This document shows positions 15,532-32,724 of a stretch of 36,424 bases of DNA, piece after piece. The translations under genes were made by a program, and so were the position numbers. Source of the stretch: a bacterium. GTDB taxonomy: Bacteria; Desulfobacterota; Anaeroferrophillalia; Anaeroferrophillales; Tharpellaceae. The notes beneath the pieces were generated by a model that was not told the DNA's origin, did no database searches, and was given only the letters and a program-made list of their open reading frames with translations. Numbering within the stretch: position 1 is the first letter of the stretch; each line of letters opens with the position of its first letter. The DNA lies in contig JAOZQE010000010.1 in assembly GCA_029932385.1 (NCBI GenBank), positions 1-36,424 on the forward strand, in the 5' to 3' direction.

Positions 15532-16383
15532 ATGAAAAACTTTTTCAAAAGAATCTTATTAGCAACTGCTCTCATTACTTTAATCAGCACCTGGGCGGTT
15601 CTGCCTTTAGCTGCCGCCGATGATCCGGTGGTTGCCGAAATCGGCTCCGAGAAGCTCACTTTAAGTCAATTTCAAACCGAAATGAAAGGACTGCCGCCGA
15701 ACCTGAAACAGATGGCCACCGACAAAAAAATGCAGAAAGAATTTCTCGAGCAGCTTGCAACCTCGCATCTCATCTACCAGGAAGGTATCAAACAGGGGGT
15801 TGACAAAGAGCCGCTGGTAAAATTCCAGATCGAGGATGCAACCCGTAAAATAGTGCTCGCCACCCTGCTTCAGCGGGAGATTGAAAGCCGGGTTAAATCC
15901 CCGACCGAAAAAGATATCGAGCAATATTACCAGACTCATGCCGACGAATTCAAGCAGGAGAAACAGGTCCGAGCCCGGCACATCCTAGTTGAAAATGAAG
16001 CTACAGCCAAAAAGATCGAGGCTAGATTAAAGGGCGGAGCTGATTTCGTGGCCTTGGCCAAAGAGAGTTCAAGCTGCCCGAGTTCGGCCAAAGGCGGAGA
16101 CTTAGGTTTCTTCACCCGCGAGCGGATGGTAAAAGAGTTCGCGGATGTCGCTTTCAAGCTCAAAAAAGGTGAAACCAGCGACCCCGTAAAAACCAAGTTC
16201 GGCTACCATATCATTCAGGTCACTGAAATCAAGGAAGCCGGCGTCACCCCCTTAGCTGAGGTTAAGACCGCAATTGAAAACAAACTGATTCAAGCCCAGA
16301 AAAGTCAGGTCTTTCAGGATTATATCGCTGGTCTGAAGAAAAAATCAACATTTGTACTGCACCCGGAACTCATCGGAGAATAA
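15532..16383 (+). CDS. Periplasmic PpiC-type peptidyl-prolyl isomerase
   Basis: A 283-residue secreted foldase. The signal peptide is about residues 1-29 (MKNFFKRILLA through LPLAAA), leaving a mature protein beginning ADDPVVAEIG. A SurA_N-like helical chaperone region (about 33-140) precedes one parvulin/PpiC domain (about 146-234), which shows RARHILV, GGDLGFF and KTKFGYHIIQV. It is the size of PrsA/PpiC-like single-domain chaperones and would act on exported proteins in the periplasm. The next gene, another PpiC-like protein, starts on the last base of its stop codon, and surA follows. Isomerase and chaperone family is sure; clients are unknown. Confidence 0.93.
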   Translation: MKNFFKRILLATALITLISTWAVLPLAAADDPVVAEIGSEKLTLSQFQTEMKGLPPNLKQMATDKKMQKEFLEQLATSHLIYQEGIKQGVDKEPLVKFQIEDATRKIVLATLLQREIESRVKSPTEKDIEQYYQTHADEFKQEKQVRARHILVENEATAKKIEARLKGGADFVALAKESSSCPSSAKGGDLGFFTRERMVKEFADVAFKLKKGETSDPVKTKFGYHIIQVTEIKEAGVTPLAEVKTAIENKLIQAQKSQVFQDYIAGLKKKSTFVLHPELIGE

Positions 16384-17351
16384 TGACTCTACCGGTTAAA
16401 CTTTCGTACCGGAAACTCCTCTGGCCCGAAGCCGGAGTTTCCGGTATAAATTTAAACCAAGAGCCGGCCGGCGGCGAGACTTTTCTTTGGAAATCGATCA
16501 CAAGTTACTTTTTATGCAGTATAATTTTCCTGACGTTGATCAGTTCTCTTCTATTTTGCGGCTGTACTTCTCCGCTAGATGTTGTGGCAATAATCGACGA
16601 TGAGCCGATCACCCGTGATCAGCTTAAGACCCGGCTTAACACTTACGATGAAAAGGCGGTTTTTGCCGCCGCAACTGACTCTGAAACTCAGACGCAATTT
16701 ACAAACGCCGAAGCAGCCCTGACACAGTTGATCAACGAACGACTCCTGCTCATAGAAGCTCGCAAACTTAAACTTCTAGCTGACAGCGATAGAGATGATC
16801 CGGGAAAATGCAAACAGGCTATCCGCAAAGTCCTGATCCGACTCGGGGAGAAAGTCTCTTTCCCCTCTTATCAAGAGGCCTTTACTTACTACAATCAGCA
16901 CCGCAACAAATTCTCAAGTAAAACGCGCTATCAACTGGAGCACCTGCTTCTTAAATCAGAGAATCTAGCCTGGGAGTTAAAGGAACAACTTGAAAATGGC
17001 GAGTTAAGCATCGCTGATGCAACTCGCCGGCAGACTCCCGACATCCAGTCTGCCAAGATTGATAATCAACATCTGATAACGGTAGATGAAATGCCGGTGG
17101 GGGTGGCTGCAATCCTGCCTGACTTAAAAATTAACCAGATCAGCCCACCGATAGCAACCCCTTACGGTTATCACCTTATTATAATCAAAAAAATAGTACC
17201 GGCTGGCAATATTCCTTTCCCCGAAGTTGAAAATAAAATTAAAGATTCACTCTTTAGCGAACGACTTAAAAAAAATTATCAAAACTGGCTGGAACTAAGC
17301 CGTAAGCAACACACCATCAAAATCTACCACAAGCATCTATCCGGTTTATAG
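16383..17351 (+). CDS. PpiC/SurA-like probable lipoprotein
   Basis: A 322-residue protein whose ATG overlaps the previous stop by one base (TAATG). A hydrophobic segment at about 40-58 ends in LLFCGCTSP, a loose lipobox with Cys61 as the probable lipid-bearing residue. A SurA_N-like region follows (VVAIIDDEPITRDQL) and then a degenerate parvulin domain at about 180-262 (YQLEHLLLKSE, then ATPYGYHLIIIKKI). The 39 residues ahead of the hydrophobic segment are unusual for a lipoprotein. No standard start codon exists between them and the membrane segment in this frame. A 13-bp perfect inverted repeat (16407-16446) lies in that stretch. Probably an anchored periplasmic chaperone; catalytic activity is doubtful. 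Confidence 0.82.
   Translation: MTLPVKLSYRKLLWPEAGVSGINLNQEPAGGETFLWKSITSYFLCSIIFLTLISSLLFCGCTSPLDVVAIIDDEPITRDQLKTRLNTYDEKAVFAAATDSETQTQFTNAEAALTQLINERLLLIEARKLKLLADSDRDDPGKCKQAIRKVLIRLGEKVSFPSYQEAFTYYNQHRNKFSSKTRYQLEHLLLKSENLAWELKEQLENGELSIADATRRQTPDIQSAKIDNQHLITVDEMPVGVAAILPDLKINQISPPIATPYGYHLIIIKKIVPAGNIPFPEVENKIKDSLFSERLKKNYQNWLELSRKQHTIKIYHKHLSGL
16407..16446 (+). repeat. Perfect 13-bp inverted repeat inside the start of the second PpiC gene
   Basis: TACCGGAAACTCC (16407-16419) and GGAGTTTCCGGTA (16434-16446) are exact reverse complements around a 14-base loop. In RNA this is a strong hairpin within codons 9-22 of the downstream frame, followed by TAAATTTAAA. Confidence 0.85.
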
Positions 17352-17366
17352 AAAGAGAAGGAATAT

Positions 17367-18323
17367 ATGAAAAAAAATTTAATCCTTTTAGCCCTGATTC
17401 TCTGCCTGAATCTCATCCCCCGGCCCGCAATTGCCATAATCACCAACCGGGTGGTCGCCATTGTCGGTAATAAGATCATCACCGAAATGGATCTGCGCTA
17501 TGCTATCAAGGTCGAGCATAACCTGGACGATTTTAGACATCTTCCCCAAAACGAACAAGATGCTATCACAAGTAAAAAACTTGATGGCCTGATCGATGAC
17601 CAGCTTATTGCCTTAAAAGCTGCTTCCCTGGGTATCAATGTCAGCGATGAAAATGTGGATGCAACGATTGAAAGGGTTTTAACCCAGAACAATATGACGC
17701 AAGAAACACTGGGACAGGCTCTGGCCGCGCAGGGACTTACGTTCACATCCTACCGGAATAAAATCGCCACCGATCTGCTTAAGGCGAGGTTTGTCAGCAA
17801 AGTGGTCAAGGCCAACATCATAATCACCAACCAGGAAATTCTTGATTATGCCAAGGAGAATGGTCTCTTCGACCAGGAAGTAAGTGTTACTTTAGCCCAG
17901 ATTTTCATTCCTAATGACTCCCCGAATGCGGCCGACGGCAAGAAAAATGAACTCTGGAAAAAGGTTCGCGAAAGATTAAAAAATGAAGAGAATTTTTATG
18001 CCCTCGCGAGTGAATTTTCCGAGGGTCCGGCGGCTCAGAAAGGGGGCCGCCTGGGAACTTTCAAGAAAGGCAACCTGCTCCAGGAAATTGAAGATGTGGC
18101 TTATGATATTTCTCTGGGTGAAACCAGTGATGTCATAAAATCATCTCTCGGCTACCACATGATTACAGTCAGTAACCGAACCGGCCCCGAAGAGGAAAAC
18201 TCATTAACTCCAGACGCTGAAGCAGAAATAAAAACAACCCTTTACAATAACAAACTGGAACATTCAATTAAAAATTTAGGCCAGGATCTACGCCAGGAAT
18301 ACAACGTCAGAATTATACAGTAA
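17367..18323 (+). CDS. surA: SurA-like periplasmic chaperone
   Basis: A 318-residue outer-membrane protein chaperone and parvulin. The signal peptide is about residues 1-23 (MKKNLILLALILCLNLIPRPAIA). A SurA N-terminal domain (about 24-165) shows VVAIVGNKIITEMDLRYA. There is a single PpiC domain (about 170-270) with GGRLGTFKKG and SSLGYHMITV, then a C-terminal helix. E. coli SurA has two parvulin domains; single-domain versions are common elsewhere. AGAAGGAA lies seven bases upstream of ATG 17367. It closes the run of three foldase genes and is followed by a strong terminator. The surA name rests on the N-terminal domain and context. Confidence 0.88.
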   Translation: MKKNLILLALILCLNLIPRPAIAIITNRVVAIVGNKIITEMDLRYAIKVEHNLDDFRHLPQNEQDAITSKKLDGLIDDQLIALKAASLGINVSDENVDATIERVLTQNNMTQETLGQALAAQGLTFTSYRNKIATDLLKARFVSKVVKANIIITNQEILDYAKENGLFDQEVSVTLAQIFIPNDSPNAADGKKNELWKKVRERLKNEENFYALASEFSEGPAAQKGGRLGTFKKGNLLQEIEDVAYDISLGETSDVIKSSLGYHMITVSNRTGPEEENSLTPDAEAEIKTTLYNNKLEHSIKNLGQDLRQEYNVRIIQ

Positions 18324-26525: not shown

Positions 26526-27292
26526 TGCTGATATTTGTTGTTGGTCTGACGGTAGGCCTGCTCTCAACCGTAATCGGTATGGGCGGCGGGATTCTTATGG
26601 TACCGGCTCTGACCGCTCTGGCCGGACTACCGCAGATTGAGGCGATGGCAACCAGTCTCGGAACCATCGCTTTGATCTCCGCCTGGAATACCTGGCGCTA
26701 TCACCGCTTAGGCTTGGTACGCTGGAAAGTAGTCGTCTGGATCGCAATTTCCTCCGGTCTCTGTGCTGCGGCAGCCGGTACCATTGCACCGTATCTACCG
26801 GAAAAGGTGCTTATCGGCCTGCTGATTTTAGTACTCCTCGCCCTGGCCTGGAAAACCATCCGGCTGGGGTCGGTAAGCTCTGCAAAAACGGCCGGGAAAC
26901 CAGCCGACAAGATTGCCTCCTTAAGCATCGGTTCCTTAGGCGGTCTGATTGCCGGTTTCACTGGGATCGGCGGCGGCGGGATTACTACTTCGCTGATGCT
27001 GGTAAGCGGAATTACCGAAAACCGAACCACGGTTCCCACCTCCAACGCCATCATGATCTTCACCACCACGGCGGGAGCACTCGCTTTCGCCCTCAACGGC
27101 AGCTGGAGCTGGCCCCGCTTAGGACTTATTCACACAGATTTCACCCTGCTCTTAGCAACCGGTGCGATAATCTCATCATTTATCGGTATTCACTTAAATC
27201 AACTGATCCAGCTCAAAACCCGCAAAACCATCTTGGGCTTCATCCTGCTATCTATCGCCCTGCGCCTGATATATCAGCTGGCCACCCGTTAA
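26525..27292 (+). CDS. TSUP (TauE/SafE) family membrane permease
   Basis: A 255-residue integral membrane protein with about eight hydrophobic helices and the repeat signature of the family. The N-terminal half has GLLSTVIGMGGGILMVPAL, and the second half has the matching GLIAGFTGIGGGGITTSLM. TSUP proteins move sulfite, sulfonates or related small anions across the inner membrane. The ATG at 26525 shares its first base with the previous stop (TGATG), so it is translationally coupled to the ACD gene. A TTG at 26522 is in frame but unnecessary. Context suggests transport of an acid or sulfur anion linked to that pathway. The direction and substrate are unknown. Confidence 0.9.
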   Translation: MLIFVVGLTVGLLSTVIGMGGGILMVPALTALAGLPQIEAMATSLGTIALISAWNTWRYHRLGLVRWKVVVWIAISSGLCAAAAGTIAPYLPEKVLIGLLILVLLALAWKTIRLGSVSSAKTAGKPADKIASLSIGSLGGLIAGFTGIGGGGITTSLMLVSGITENRTTVPTSNAIMIFTTTAGALAFALNGSWSWPRLGLIHTDFTLLLATGAIISSFIGIHLNQLIQLKTRKTILGFILLSIALRLIYQLATR

Positions 27293-28761
27293 CAACGATT
27301 GTTAAGTCGAACGTTCTGTTGTTCCAACAGGGATTTAATCTCCCGGGCGGTCGATTCACAAAGCCCGTCCGGATGGCCATTTTCCAGTTGCCAGCCGGCC
27401 GCTATGGTCTCAACAAAGCGATTGATTGAAGTCTCCGGTAGAGCCGTCGGATTATGCGCCCAGGCGAGCATCCCCTGAACCTGGTCACGACAGCTTAAAT
27501 CCATATTGAAACCATACTGAAAACCTTTGCAGGCCATCAGAACCGGGAAATAACTGTAATTCCGATCTGCCGGTGCTTTCAACCGCAGATAGGAGTATTC
27601 AACCACCTCTTTCCTGATCTCACCTTTATCCGGACGATGTTTGCGTCTCTGGATTACCCCGCGCAATTCATTATTCGCCAAGCGCAACTCACGCATCTGG
27701 CCGTTCTCATTACAACCCAGATCACCACCTAAAAGGAGCAGGCAGAGATAATCATCAAGCTCCGGTTTTACCTGACCAAAAGCAATTTTTTCAAAATTTA
27801 CATGGAGGCTGTGGGGTTTGATTTCGGAGATGAAATTTATGACTTCATCGATATAGAGAGCGATTAAACCAAGATCCATCGACAATGGCATCGAAAAACT
27901 GCGCGGATAGTCGAGACGCACCAGTGAATACTCGAAAAAACCACCCGGCTGAGCCCAAAGCCGCGGCAGAGACAAAATCGAGCGGCCCCGGATATGGGAA
28001 TCGAGATAACCCCCTAAACGCCAGCTGATATCATCTAGAAAGAAACCCTCGTAATAATGCATATTCTGAAATAGGGGATCGCTTAATTCACCTTTGAAAG
28101 GCTTATCAAAGGTCGCAAAACGACCCAGATTACTGAACTCGAGTTCGACTCCGGCCGGGGTCCGGCCGGGCCGACTGAATTTTATTAACTCCTCAGCCGC
28201 CAATTCCGCCATCTCAGAAAAAGGTCGCAAATCCTGCAACAGGGAGGCACAGAGAAGAGCGTAAACATAAAGACTGCGCTGATTCTCGGCAATCACTTCA
28301 TCAATCAGAGCATCTATCCGGGCATCATATTCCGACCGCTGCCGGTTAAACCAGATAATTGCCGCCAGGTTTGGAAAAAAATCATAATAACAACTCTCCG
28401 GCTGATCCGGCAGGGAGTATTGTTCAAGACTACGGCGAATGCCTTGGGCATGGAGACCAAACAGGTAATGCCTGAAAATAAGCCGGAGATGGGGCCGTAA
28501 GATCTCTTGCTGATTCCAGATCCGGGAGCTGATGGTCTGACGCCGAAACTGGTTGACCGCCGCAAGTTCGATATTATGTCGAAAGGAATTGGCTCGGAAG
28601 GTTGGATCTGCGGCAGACTGTCTCTTAAAAAAGAGAAAACGGCGCCGGTAGGTGACTCCGATAAACTCCCGCAGAAGCGACATCCGCTCATGCACCGTCA
28701 GGCGTTGATAGAGCGTCTCATAACGAGTCGAACGCAGTTGTCTGGGAAAATAGATAGCCAT
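27289..28761 (-). CDS. Unrecognised protein with amidoligase (COOH-NH2 ligase)-like motifs
   Basis: A 490-residue cytoplasmic protein with no clear name. The N-terminal 200 residues are helical and rich in Arg and Phe/Tyr. The rest shows a spaced motif set typical of glutamate-cysteine-ligase/amidoligase folds: GVELEF (204-209), DDIS (243-246), FFEYSL (275-280), HSLHVNFE (317-324), and a late E-x-R type strand VEYSYLRL (387-394). Such enzymes use ATP to join a carboxylate to an amine. The motif match is by eye and partial (HVN instead of HVH), so the function is tentative. Its stop overlaps the convergent TSUP stop. It follows hisS by 86 bases on the same strand. No good ribosome site precedes ATG 28761. 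Confidence 0.8.
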   Translation of the reverse strand: MAIYFPRQLRSTRYETLYQRLTVHERMSLLREFIGVTYRRRFLFFKRQSAADPTFRANSFRHNIELAAVNQFRRQTISSRIWNQQEILRPHLRLIFRHYLFGLHAQGIRRSLEQYSLPDQPESCYYDFFPNLAAIIWFNRQRSEYDARIDALIDEVIAENQRSLYVYALLCASLLQDLRPFSEMAELAAEELIKFSRPGRTPAGVELEFSNLGRFATFDKPFKGELSDPLFQNMHYYEGFFLDDISWRLGGYLDSHIRGRSILSLPRLWAQPGGFFEYSLVRLDYPRSFSMPLSMDLGLIALYIDEVINFISEIKPHSLHVNFEKIAFGQVKPELDDYLCLLLLGGDLGCNENGQMRELRLANNELRGVIQRRKHRPDKGEIRKEVVEYSYLRLKAPADRNYSYFPVLMACKGFQYGFNMDLSCRDQVQGMLAWAHNPTALPETSINRFVETIAAGWQLENGHPDGLCESTAREIKSLLEQQNVRLNNRC

Positions 28762-28847: not shown

Positions 28848-30122
28848 TCAATCTTGGTAGAGTCTCCTTAAAGTTTCTTCGAGCTCGGTGAAAGCGATCC
28901 CGGTCTGCTCTTTGGTCTGCATATTACGACAGATAGCCACCCCTTTCTCAAGCTCATCCGGGCCGATGATAAGAGCATATTTGGCTCCGTCCTTGTCCGC
29001 CTTTTTGAGCTGACTTTTGAGACTTTTCTGCTGCAGACCCAGAGTTGCAATACCAGCATCCCGGTTCAGTTTCACGTAAATCGGGAAAAGCCGACGTAAA
29101 GCCTCTTCATCAAGAGGAATCAAGGTGACAAAAGGTGATGATAAAGGCCCGAGTTTATCGCCGGCAAGCATCATTAAGCGCTCAAAACCGATGGCAAAGC
29201 CAAAAGCCGGAGTCATTTTGCCGCCCAGCTCTTCCACCAGACGATCGTAGCGGCCGCCGGCGGCTACCGCGTTCTGAGCTCCAAGGTCTCCGGCCAGAAA
29301 TTCAAACGTCGTCCGCGTATAATAGTCGAGGCCTCTGACCAGTTTGGAATTTATCTGATAATCCAGGCCGACATCATCAAGCAAACCGCAGAGACCGGAA
29401 AAATGTTCCCGGCAATCACCGCACAGAGATTCATTGATCTGCGGCGCATCAACTACCACCTCCCGGCAGGAAGGATTTTTGCAATCCAAAGCCCTGAGCG
29501 GATTCTCCTTAATTCGGCGCTGACAGTCGCCACACAACAAAGATTCACGTTCTAACAGGAAACTTTGTAGTTGTTCCCGAAAAGCCGGACGACAGTCTTC
29601 ACAGCCCAGGCTGTTAAGCTGCAGAATGATTCCGTCAATTGAGAGAGCCTGAAAAAACTGCGCCAGCATCACCAGGGTTTCAGCATCCTGATAAAAACTC
29701 GCTTCGCCAAAAACCTCGGCCCCTAATTGATGAAACTGCCGATAACGCCCTTTCTGCGGCCGTTCGTAACGAAACATCGGACCAACATAATAGAGTTTGT
29801 TTATTTCACTTATTTTGCCGAGAGAGTATTGATTGAAGGCCCGCACAACCGAGGCCGTCCCTTCAGGCCGCAGGGTCAGCGAACGCTCGGAGCGGTCAGA
29901 AAAAGTATACATCTCTTTTTCAACAATATCGGTCTCACCGCCAATACTCCGGGAGAAAAGTTCGGTCGGTTCCAACAGGGCCAGACGCATCTCGGCAAAG
30001 CCGTAACCCTCTAAAAGGTTGCGGAATTTATCTTCAACTAAACGCCAGCGAAAACTCTCAGGCGGCAAAACTTCATTAAAACCCTTAACCGTTTTTATCT
30101 GATTTTTTTTCATAATTGTCAT
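28848..30122 (-). CDS. hisS: Histidyl-tRNA synthetase
   Basis: Charges tRNA-His with histidine; a class II synthetase of 424 residues. The N-terminal motif 1 region has KGFNEVLPPESFRW. LTLRPEGTA is at 83-90, and motif 2 is YRQFHQLGAEVFG after FRYERPQKG (117-139). The histidine-specific LVRGLDYYTRTTFEF is at 261-275, motif 3 GFAIGFERL at 308-316, and the anticodon-binding domain covers about 328-424. The middle insertion (174-245) has nine cysteines in CxxC-like pairs (174/177, 197/200, 214/219, 234/237), suggesting a zinc-binding insertion as seen in some bacterial HisRS. The start is ATG 30122, or 30113 (MKKNQIK). Upstream on the same strand are comEC and the DnaJ-like gene. Confidence 0.97.
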   Translation of the reverse strand: MTIMKKNQIKTVKGFNEVLPPESFRWRLVEDKFRNLLEGYGFAEMRLALLEPTELFSRSIGGETDIVEKEMYTFSDRSERSLTLRPEGTASVVRAFNQYSLGKISEINKLYYVGPMFRYERPQKGRYRQFHQLGAEVFGEASFYQDAETLVMLAQFFQALSIDGIILQLNSLGCEDCRPAFREQLQSFLLERESLLCGDCQRRIKENPLRALDCKNPSCREVVVDAPQINESLCGDCREHFSGLCGLLDDVGLDYQINSKLVRGLDYYTRTTFEFLAGDLGAQNAVAAGGRYDRLVEELGGKMTPAFGFAIGFERLMMLAGDKLGPLSSPFVTLIPLDEEALRRLFPIYVKLNRDAGIATLGLQQKSLKSQLKKADKDGAKYALIIGPDELEKGVAICRNMQTKEQTGIAFTELEETLRRLYQD

Positions 30123-30201: not shown

Positions 30202-32724
30202 TCATAACTTATCGGGCCATCCTTGACAACTGGAAATTAGGGATGCCGGCAGTTTACGGGTAAGTTTACCCGAAATATCGGCTTCGAGAAAGAGAAAACC
30301 ATCTCTTTTAACGGACCAGCTAGCGAAGGCCGCACCTTTGTCAATCCCGTTAATTTTTCCGCCTGCCGGCAACAGCGTCCAACCGCCGGGTTCAACCACG
30401 ATAGAATCCTGAATCGCGGATTGAGACAGATCGTGAACGCGCAATCGAGCCAAAAGGTCAACCCGTTCCGGCAGTAGCGCCTCATCCAACTGGCCACCAC
30501 TCAAAATCAAAGTCGAAAAGTCGCCGTAACGTAGCAGAAACGACGGAGCCATTGCCAGTAACGACTCGGAATTTGAAATTGACATCCGAAAATCATTGGC
30601 GGGCGGCCCGACTGCTGAGATTGTCACTCCGTTTAAAGAAAAAGGATAGGAGAACGATGAAAGCTTGCGCCATCTGACCGAAAATAAGTCGTTGCTGATA
30701 CGGCAGAAATTCTTAAACGGCGGATAGCCGCTCCAGATTCCATGATACCAGATCTCCCTGACTTGAAAATGTTCAACCAGGAAAAGCAATCCTCCAACCA
30801 GCCCCCGCTGCGGTTCGGTCAGCACCAGCGTATCGATGCATTTGATTTTCCGCCGCCAGCAATAGGGCGCGATCACATTTTTCGCAAAGGAGAAAAAGGA
30901 TGTTGATCTCAGACTTTCGGTACTGCCGCTGGAACCACACCACGACCCACCGTTAAAAAGCAGCGCCTCGCCACCGGGAAGCTCAAACAAAAGAGCCTGG
31001 GGATGGCTGCCGACAAAAGCTGCAACCGCAACCTTTTTACGGCCCTGTTGATACTGCCACCAGATTTGATCTGAACCTAAGACTGCAAAAAGGATGAACA
31101 GCAAGGCCGCAGTCGCTTTTTTACTGCTCGACGGAGTCAGCAGCCAGCCACCGGTCAGTATAATCAGAGCGACTAAAATAATTTCAAAAGAGGTCAGCGA
31201 GGCCCAGTAAGAACGGCCCGCCGGCAACCACTCCTGCAACCACTTGCTGGCGCTGATTAAACCGTCAAGCACGACCGCCGGAAGTTTAAGCAGCAACGCC
31301 ATTATCTGAGGGAATTTCACAAACAGCAGAGAGAGCATACCCAGCGGAATAATCAACAGAGAAAAAAGCGGAATCAGCAGGAGATTGGCGATCAGAGAGT
31401 AGATTGAAATAAAATGGACCCGGTTAATAAGTAGCGGCGCCGTAGTCAGACTTATCGCCAGAGAACTTGCACCAAGATAAAATATGTAACGGCAGCCAGC
31501 CTGAAATATGGCCGTTCTTTTGCACATCAGCGGCAAAAGCCTAAGTTCCCACCACTCATTAGAGCGGGGTACGATCCACAGGATTGTTGCAACCGCAGTA
31601 AATGAGAGCTGAAATGAGAGGGCAAAGAGTGCCTCCGGCCAGATCATAAGAATCACAACTGCTGCCAGAAAAAGGGTTGAAAAGGGATCACGAAGCCGAC
31701 CGCTGAGCAGAGTAAACAGGAAAAAGAGCGCCATTATTCCGGCCCTGACAACCGGCAGGTGCAACCCCGCCAGGAGAATATAGACCGGCAGAAAGAGCAT
31801 AGTTATGCCCGCGGCAATCGGAACCGTACCTTTAGGCAGTCGCCGTCTGATAAAATCGGGAATAATTGCTTTGCAGAGAAAAAAGAGGAGGGCTACGACA
31901 ACACTCAGGTGCAATCCGGAGATGGCAAAGAGGTGAAAAATTCCGAAATCGAGAAAGAGCTCCCTGACCTTGAAACTCAGTTGATCCCGGCTGCCGATAA
32001 GAACTGCCTGCAGAATCGCGGCGCTGTCGGGACTGCCCGCGTTATCTGCCAGCGCCCGATAGAGTAAACGGCGGATTTTTTCAATCCGGGCCAGAAAACC
32101 GGTGGCCGGAGTAACAATCTTGATATCAGCAAAGTCGTCAATCTGAGCCCAAGCCGTGAGACCTGATAGAACCTGGCTGCGCCGCCGGCCGCGAAGAAAC
32201 GGATGCCGGGCCGCAGTCAGCGGTTGCAATGCCACCTTTACCGTAACAATATCACCGATCAACGGCAGACGACTATCGTCATAAACTGTAACGGGGAGTT
32301 TAAGCAGAATTTCTCCGGGTCCGATTGAATCTTCGGCAAGCGGTCGCAAACGCAACTGCCAACCCCTGGGAGAACCGTGGGGAAAGGTTGTAATCCGGCC
32401 TGAGATAATGGTCGCGGCAGCATTCCGGCCATCATGAAGCATACCGCTTACCTTGAGGAAATCGGCCTGCCGAGCCGCAATGCGCAGCGACCCAAACCAG
32501 ACTGCAGCCAGAGCGACCAGTACCAACAACAGAAACTTTAAAAAATCCGGCCTGACTCTATGACAACGCAGAATAAGAAAGTAAAAAAATATCAGCAGAG
32601 CAGCCGATAAAAGAGTGGAAAATATCTTAAAACCGCAACAAACCGGAGCCAGAATCGACCAGATAACAATCGCTAAGAGCAAAAGAGAGGGTCGATAAAC
32701 TACCTCACGCCCAAAACCCGACAT
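30202..32724 (-). CDS. comEC: ComEC/Rec2 DNA-uptake channel protein with degenerate C-terminal domain
   Basis: An 840-residue inner-membrane protein of the ComEC/Rec2 family, the channel for single-stranded DNA in natural transformation. The N-terminal membrane helices are followed by a DUF4131-type OB domain (about 70-210). The competence core has HLFAISGLHLSVVVAL near 262-278 and many membrane helices to about 530. The C-terminal metallo-beta-lactamase-like domain (about 550-840) has lost its expected metal ligands. The SHPDADH position reads TEPQRGL, the TGD position reads LSGGQ, and the HHGS position reads DLSQSA. DNA translocation could remain, but nuclease activity in this domain seems unlikely. 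An AAGG site lies upstream of ATG 32724. Confidence 0.92.
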   Translation of the reverse strand: MSGFGREVVYRPSLLLLAIVIWSILAPVCCGFKIFSTLLSAALLIFFYFLILRCHRVRPDFLKFLLLVLVALAAVWFGSLRIAARQADFLKVSGMLHDGRNAAATIISGRITTFPHGSPRGWQLRLRPLAEDSIGPGEILLKLPVTVYDDSRLPLIGDIVTVKVALQPLTAARHPFLRGRRRSQVLSGLTAWAQIDDFADIKIVTPATGFLARIEKIRRLLYRALADNAGSPDSAAILQAVLIGSRDQLSFKVRELFLDFGIFHLFAISGLHLSVVVALLFFLCKAIIPDFIRRRLPKGTVPIAAGITMLFLPVYILLAGLHLPVVRAGIMALFFLFTLLSGRLRDPFSTLFLAAVVILMIWPEALFALSFQLSFTAVATILWIVPRSNEWWELRLLPLMCKRTAIFQAGCRYIFYLGASSLAISLTTAPLLINRVHFISIYSLIANLLLIPLFSLLIIPLGMLSLLFVKFPQIMALLLKLPAVVLDGLISASKWLQEWLPAGRSYWASLTSFEIILVALIILTGGWLLTPSSSKKATAALLFILFAVLGSDQIWWQYQQGRKKVAVAAFVGSHPQALLFELPGGEALLFNGGSWCGSSGSTESLRSTSFFSFAKNVIAPYCWRRKIKCIDTLVLTEPQRGLVGGLLFLVEHFQVREIWYHGIWSGYPPFKNFCRISNDLFSVRWRKLSSFSYPFSLNGVTISAVGPPANDFRMSISNSESLLAMAPSFLLRYGDFSTLILSGGQLDEALLPERVDLLARLRVHDLSQSAIQDSIVVEPGGWTLLPAGGKINGIDKGAAFASWSVKRDGFLFLEADISGKLTRKLPASLISSCQGWPDKL

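Follow-up and report, generated by a model that had tools for sequence, protein, structure and literature searches.

An amidoligase-like protein family of the Candidatus Tharpella order and its pairing with a putative gamma-glutamylamine cyclotransferase

The window, a 36,424 bp stretch of DNA, carries a gene for a conserved protein that resembles glutamate-cysteine ligases (GCS) and amidoligases in two motifs, and in relatives this gene is paired with one whose product matches the gamma-glutamyl(amine) cyclotransferase (GGACT) family. With modest confidence, we read the protein as a divergent carboxylate-amine ligase of the GCS type, with a product that a GGACT could cleave. If this is right, the amidoligases gain a family that the family libraries do not recognize, together with a likely partner, a cyclotransferase removing what the ligase adds, and a two-gene biochemical test becomes possible. 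An uncultured marine order, which its describers proposed as a phylum, would likewise have a core gene pair of its own.

The gene and its locus

The open reading frame is a real gene, transcribed in the same direction as its conserved neighbours:

27289-28761, minus strand: amidoligase-like gene, copy type A; open reading frame with translation, ATG start, 490 codons (490 aa)
28848-30122, minus strand: hisS (PF13393); upstream of the ligase gene, co-directional, 86 bp away
30202-32724, minus strand: comEC homologue (PF03772 and synteny); upstream of hisS, conserved neighbour

Pairwise comparisons with the nearest homologues gave dN values of 0.15-0.18 with dS saturated (>1), which indicates purifying selection. 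On the same strand, dnaJ-, comEC- and hisS-like genes and then the ligase gene follow one another with gaps of 73, 79 and 86 bp; they likely form one run with the ligase gene at its end. The location next to hisS, stated in the original prediction, was thus confirmed. On the other side a TauE/SafE gene converges with the ligase gene, tail to tail. Elsewhere in the window (15532-18323) three SurA/PPIase-type chaperone genes lie in series.

Distribution and gene history

Every one of the 22 genomes searched from the Candidatus Tharpella order (named here after the nearest named relative) has a homologue, and often it has two; a profile search of 377 other genomes from across the phylum found none. 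Searches of viral contigs, phages and plasmids gave no match; beyond the phylum, coverage consisted of a pattern scan for close relatives, so that distant ones may exist there. The family is undescribed and known so far from the marine Tharpella group alone.

Two copy types, A (which includes the window gene) and B, share about 43% identity. In the tree each forms a clade of its own with full support, on a long branch (0.93 changes per column for A and 0.74 for B), and the genes of the sister family branch between them. This topology fits a duplication within the window's family, after which A stayed at the hisS locus and B moved with the other neighbour. Type A copies have a four-residue insertion preceding the GGFFEYS motif (alignment A1).

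Two copies depart from the general pattern. One sister-family genome (L096 / L008, G018:C48) carries, in addition to its own copy, one of type A that lacks an adjacent hisS and nests among the copies of the window's genus; this is either a lateral transfer or a mis-binned contig. The B copy at G011:C12:8461-9881 is broken across two frames, with an in-frame TGA, next to an intact GGACT gene, owing to either gene decay or an assembly error.

Conserved residues and motifs

Residue conservation was counted in 27 homologues comprising A, B and sister-family copies (alignment A1). The features of the protein, all encoded on the minus strand, are:

28177-28761, minus strand: N-terminal helical region, residues 1-195; invariant C124, N139, R162 and Y167 (A1)
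28135-28152, minus strand: GVELEF, residues 204-209; candidate first strand; invariant G204, E206 and E208
28024-28035, minus strand: DDIS, residues 243-246; candidate D-x-S/T; D244 conserved, D243 variable
27994-28023, minus strand: WRLGGYLDSH, residues 247-256; family signature; invariant columns in A1
27925-27945, minus strand: GGFFEYS, residues 273-279; candidate third strand; invariant G273, G274, E277 and Y278
27790-27816, minus strand: PHSLHVNFE, residues 316-324; candidate fourth strand; invariant H317, H320, N322 and E324
27682-27693, minus strand: RELR, residues 357-360; invariant E358-x-R360 (27/27); candidate last catalytic E-x-R
27580-27606, minus strand: VVEYSYLRL, residues 386-394; invariant E388 and R393; position 391 is F in 24 and Y in 3

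Invariant in all 27 sequences were E206, E208, E277, H320, N322, E358, R360, E388 and R393, as well as D254, H256, R282, D284, H317, E324, E365, R373 and H375, and 67 of the 100 invariant positions fall within residues 196-425. All motifs quoted in the original prediction are present (GVELEF at 204-209, DDIS at 243-246, FFEYSL at 275-280, HSLHVNFE at 317-324 and VEYSYLRL at 387-394), and their order agrees with that in GCS/amidoligase enzymes. Of the residues it singled out for conservation, E206, E208, H320 and R393 proved to be invariant and D244 nearly so (D in 26, E in 1), but D243 varies (D in 16, E in 10, A in 1).

The magnesium ligands of E. coli GshA are E27, E29, D60, E67, H150 and E328 (PMC12817896). 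For each of these six ligand types the family has a conserved candidate in the same order, the last one hinging on the choice between E358 and E388. E206 and E208 are candidate metal ligands, and so is E277, whose likely counterparts are E67 in GshA and E74 in L070; H320 and N322 correspond to H150 and N152 of GshA (block match, GshA alignment). The HVN sequence had been considered a deviation from a usual HVH. This view is not supported, because HxN is found both in GshA, where H and N of H150-Y-N152 are invariant in 14 of 14 diverse GshA/GshAB sequences, and in a Pfam Amidoligase_2 subgroup with HxN or QxN (four proteins of the phylum). Towards the C-terminus VEYSYLRL resembles IEYIEVRSL of GshA, with F/Y standing where GshA has E328, and the preceding NELRGVIQRR resembles NELYAPIRPKR. 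The place of the putative catalytic E-x-R, E358-x-R360 or E388/R393, is therefore ambiguous. None of the amidoligases aligned here has a counterpart of the WRLGGYLDSH signature.

Library, profile and structure searches

Searches of Pfam, NCBIfam, PHROG, PADLOC and PDB sequences with the amidoligase-like protein returned no match; the best PHROG match was a 17-residue chance stretch and was discarded. As to a defence role, PADLOC was without a match and no defence genes were noticed nearby. The PF12224 (Amidoligase_2) HMM, with its cut-off of 22 bits, matched none of 27 members even at an E value of 1. PF04262 did not match the family either, and its E328-x-R330 is lacking (F/Y in place of E328 if VEYSYLRL is aligned). 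Because the HMMs of neither family recognize these proteins, they should be filed as amidoligase-like, outside PF12224 and PF04262. The PF12224 features seen in the family are GxExE and H-x-[HN], in the right order and spacing and invariant in the 27 sequences; for the D-x-S, E..SP and E-x-R strands there are conserved candidates (D244, E277 and E358-x-R360), none of them picked by the blind search described below.

When the family was compared by hhalign with three GCS-type alignments (Amidoligase_2, GshA), no signal was obtained (1-2% against Amidoligase_2). This negative carries no weight, since Amidoligase_2 and GshA, two accepted GCS-fold families, likewise failed when compared with each other (0.8%). 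AlphaFold2 models of the full-length protein and of residues 192-490, made from 13 close rows (12 homologues of 59-97% identity), had mean pLDDT values of 51 and 46, respectively, with the core below 40; parts of the N-terminal region were modelled as helices with pLDDT 60-90 in the full-length model. A Foldseek search of the PDB with the low-confidence model of residues 192-490 yielded unrelated matches and no relevant fold.

Chance test of the motif match

Motif blocks were built from the Amidoligase_2 and GshA alignments, blind to the amidoligase-like family. In a test with two blocks (GxExE and Hx[HN] at the correct spacing) 28 of 28 family rows outranked 137 decoys, which were other proteins from the same loci, and the fitted extreme-value p for the window protein was about 0.008. 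The two blocks land on GVELEF, the top-scoring position for GxExE, and on SLHVNFE. A blind search with five blocks failed to put D-x-S, E..S and E-x-R on the residues expected for them. Its total for the family exceeded those of 2000 column shuffles and was topped by four decoy profiles longer than 650 aa (two of them reversed). Together, the block tests moderately favour a GCS/amidoligase likeness beyond chance.

Pairing with a GGACT gene

In the sister family the gene order is comEC, hisS, a gene of about 160 codons and the ligase gene, followed by a convergent gene that encodes a protein matching PF06094 (GGACT, gamma-glutamyl(amine) cyclotransferase) with E values of 1e-17 to 1e-19. The GGACT gene is convergent with the ligase gene at all 15 sister-family and B loci and adjacent to it in 14. 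In 13 of the 15 the distance is at most 178 bp or the 3' ends overlap; the exceptions are L098, with a 525 bp gap, and L086, where two ORFs (2.8 kb) intervene. Being convergent, the two genes are on separate transcripts. The GGACT gene stayed with the B copy after B had left the hisS locus, and the B copy of the window's own genome (L085) also retains it. Beside the type A copy of the window it is absent. The original prediction that the ligase gene has no partner is thus true of the window locus but not of the 15 sister-family and B loci, and the idea of a single-gene ligase was not borne out, as relatives pair the ligase gene with a GGACT gene.

The GGACT family is specific to the order, in which 19 of the 22 genomes have it; outside the order there was one weak generic match. 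The three genomes without it are 68-78% complete. A YGSL motif and an LDxLEGY-type stretch are conserved, the latter being presumably the site of the GGACT catalytic Glu. Direct alignment of the Tharpella GGACT with LUZ24 gp22 gave an E value of 6e-07 and spanned FVYGSL and LDxLEGY. In L085 (7790-8470) and relatives (alignment A5) the protein is extended at its C-terminus beyond the GGACT domain match. Four cysteines of this extension are invariant (C185, C200, C204 and C210 in L085), and it may hold a metal or an Fe-S cluster.

Reported cases of an amidoligase gene near an AIG2/GGCT gene come from the LUZ24-like phage UFV-P2 (PMC3890496), C. difficile Tn6164 (PMC3485107), Arthrobacter phages (PMC5513430), prophages of Terrisporobacter (PMC11253131) and Clostridium clostridioforme (PMC11318856), and a planctomycete phage gene set (PMC10945688).

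The gene for the protein of about 160 aa lies between hisS and the ligase gene at L032, L033, L035-L040, L042, L094, L095 and L097-L100 (alignment A8), in most of the sister family 2-3 bp from the ligase gene. Its product has a weak, sub-threshold resemblance to FliX and occurs elsewhere in the phylum. Since the gene is missing from the window genome (it is also missing from G005), it was rejected as an essential partner.

Comparison with known systems

The family resembles PF12224 Amidoligase_2 in the motif order GxExE, D-x-S, E..S, H-x-[HN], E-x-R, with candidates for D-x-S, E..S and E-x-R, and in the pairing with an AIG2/GGACT cyclotransferase, which for Amidoligase_2 occurs in phages and mobile elements; linkage to AIG2/GGACT or a GAT peptidase is typical of Amidoligase_2, not strictly defining. 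Unlike PF12224, the Tharpella family has a helical N-terminus of 200 residues and the WRLGGYxDxH signature, is chromosomal and order-wide, and has neither a glutamine amidotransferase nor an ATP-grasp enzyme among its conserved neighbours.

With E. coli GshA (PF04262) it shares GVELE (GLERE in GshA), a D followed by an E, SLHVN (GVHYN) and NEL..I..R...VEY..LR (NEL..I..R...IEY..VR). The spacing from the first Glu to the His is 114 residues here, 123 in GshA, 98 in L070 and 65 in LUZ24 gp18. In contrast to GshA, the family is shorter and differently arranged, with Y/F instead of E328 in the last motif. In 198 genomes of the phylum, a search for PF04262 itself found nothing.

PF14395 COOH-NH2_lig (LUZ24 gp16) likewise has an acid motif, H-x-H and then E-x-R 58 residues further on, a distance comparable with the 38 (H320 to E358) or 73 (H320 to R393) of the family, and its gene in LUZ24 sits near amidoligase and GGCT-family genes. 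Unlike the family, PF14395 is about half the length, and there is no sequence match between them. The LUZ24-type cluster, consisting of amidoligase, glutamine amidotransferase, RimK and UPF0131/GGCT, resembles the Tharpella pair in combining a ligase-like gene with a homologous cyclotransferase (gp22), but the Tharpella pair consists of two convergent genes whose conserved neighbours include no GAT or ATP-grasp enzyme.

Proposed function and alternatives

A gamma-glutamyl-type ligase is preferred mainly because of the GGACT pairing, which is known for phage amidoligases and is independent of the motifs. We infer a GCS/amidoligase-type fold and active site behind the family-specific helical N-terminal domain, where Mg2+ would be bound by E206, E208, D244, E277, H320 and a further Glu towards the C-terminus, either E358 or E388. 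A carboxylate, most likely that of a glutamate side chain, would be phosphorylated by ATP and then attacked by an amine, and R360 or R393, both invariant, would stabilize the transition state. The neighbouring GGACT could then cut the product to the amine and 5-oxoproline, giving a make-and-break cycle. Further points in favour of this reading are the conserved candidates for all six GshA ligand types, the fitting distance from the first Glu to the His, the two-block ranking and the clustering of invariant positions in residues 196-425. Speaking against it are the lack of a match in family libraries and PDB sequences, the failure of the blind search to find the later blocks, the ambiguous place of the E-x-R, the missing GGACT neighbour of the window copy and the convergent arrangement of the pair, which rules out a common transcript.

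The most serious alternative, possible though we doubt it, is an enzyme with a different fold, metal-dependent and confined to this lineage, for instance a hydrolase, which has GxExE, E, H-x-N and E-x-R by chance. For such an enzyme the adjacency of GGACT would, with similar doubt, be inherited gene order only, as it is for the equally linked hisS and comEC; the GGACT gene was, however, kept by the B copy away from hisS. Homology to known families is undetectable, the five-block search finds just two blocks clearly, and many invariants (WRLGGYxDxH, GGD, DYP) are without a counterpart in the aligned amidoligases. Against this stand the two-block ranking above all 137 decoys and the chemistry, order and spacing of the invariant residues.

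It is unlikely that B is the working ligase and the A copy of the window a subfunctionalized or regulatory paralogue, with another target or with substrate binding alone. The separation of A and B on long branches, the four-residue insertion and the lack of a GGACT neighbour would agree with such a role, but A keeps every candidate catalytic residue and its dN/dS is low. Least probable is a guanido-kinase or glutamine-synthetase-like enzyme that shares the superfold but makes no gamma-glutamyl amide, its reaction being the phosphorylation or amidation of a small molecule: glutamine synthetase has the same metal-ligand order (E129, E131, E212, E220, H269 and E357), but the GGACT partner points to gamma-glutamyl amides, and there was no guanido-kinase or glutamine-synthetase Pfam match.

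Returning to the gamma-glutamyl-type ligase, a more far-reaching version can be put forward tentatively: new GCS-fold amidoligases, universal in the order and duplicated in one of its families, might act with the order-specific, Cys-rich GGACT in the reversible gamma-glutamylation of an amine or protein of the cell. The pairing known from the papers cited above in phages and mobile elements would then have a chromosomal counterpart in a core genome.

A second GCS-like protein

A separate protein of about 325-345 aa with a weak match to PF04107 (GCS2) is encoded in the window's genome and in other members of its family (L108, G000:C51:13989-14315; L103-L107 and L109-L112). It has GFEYEF / FEPGGQLEYGSPP motifs and may, on this slight similarity, be a second divergent GCS-like enzyme.
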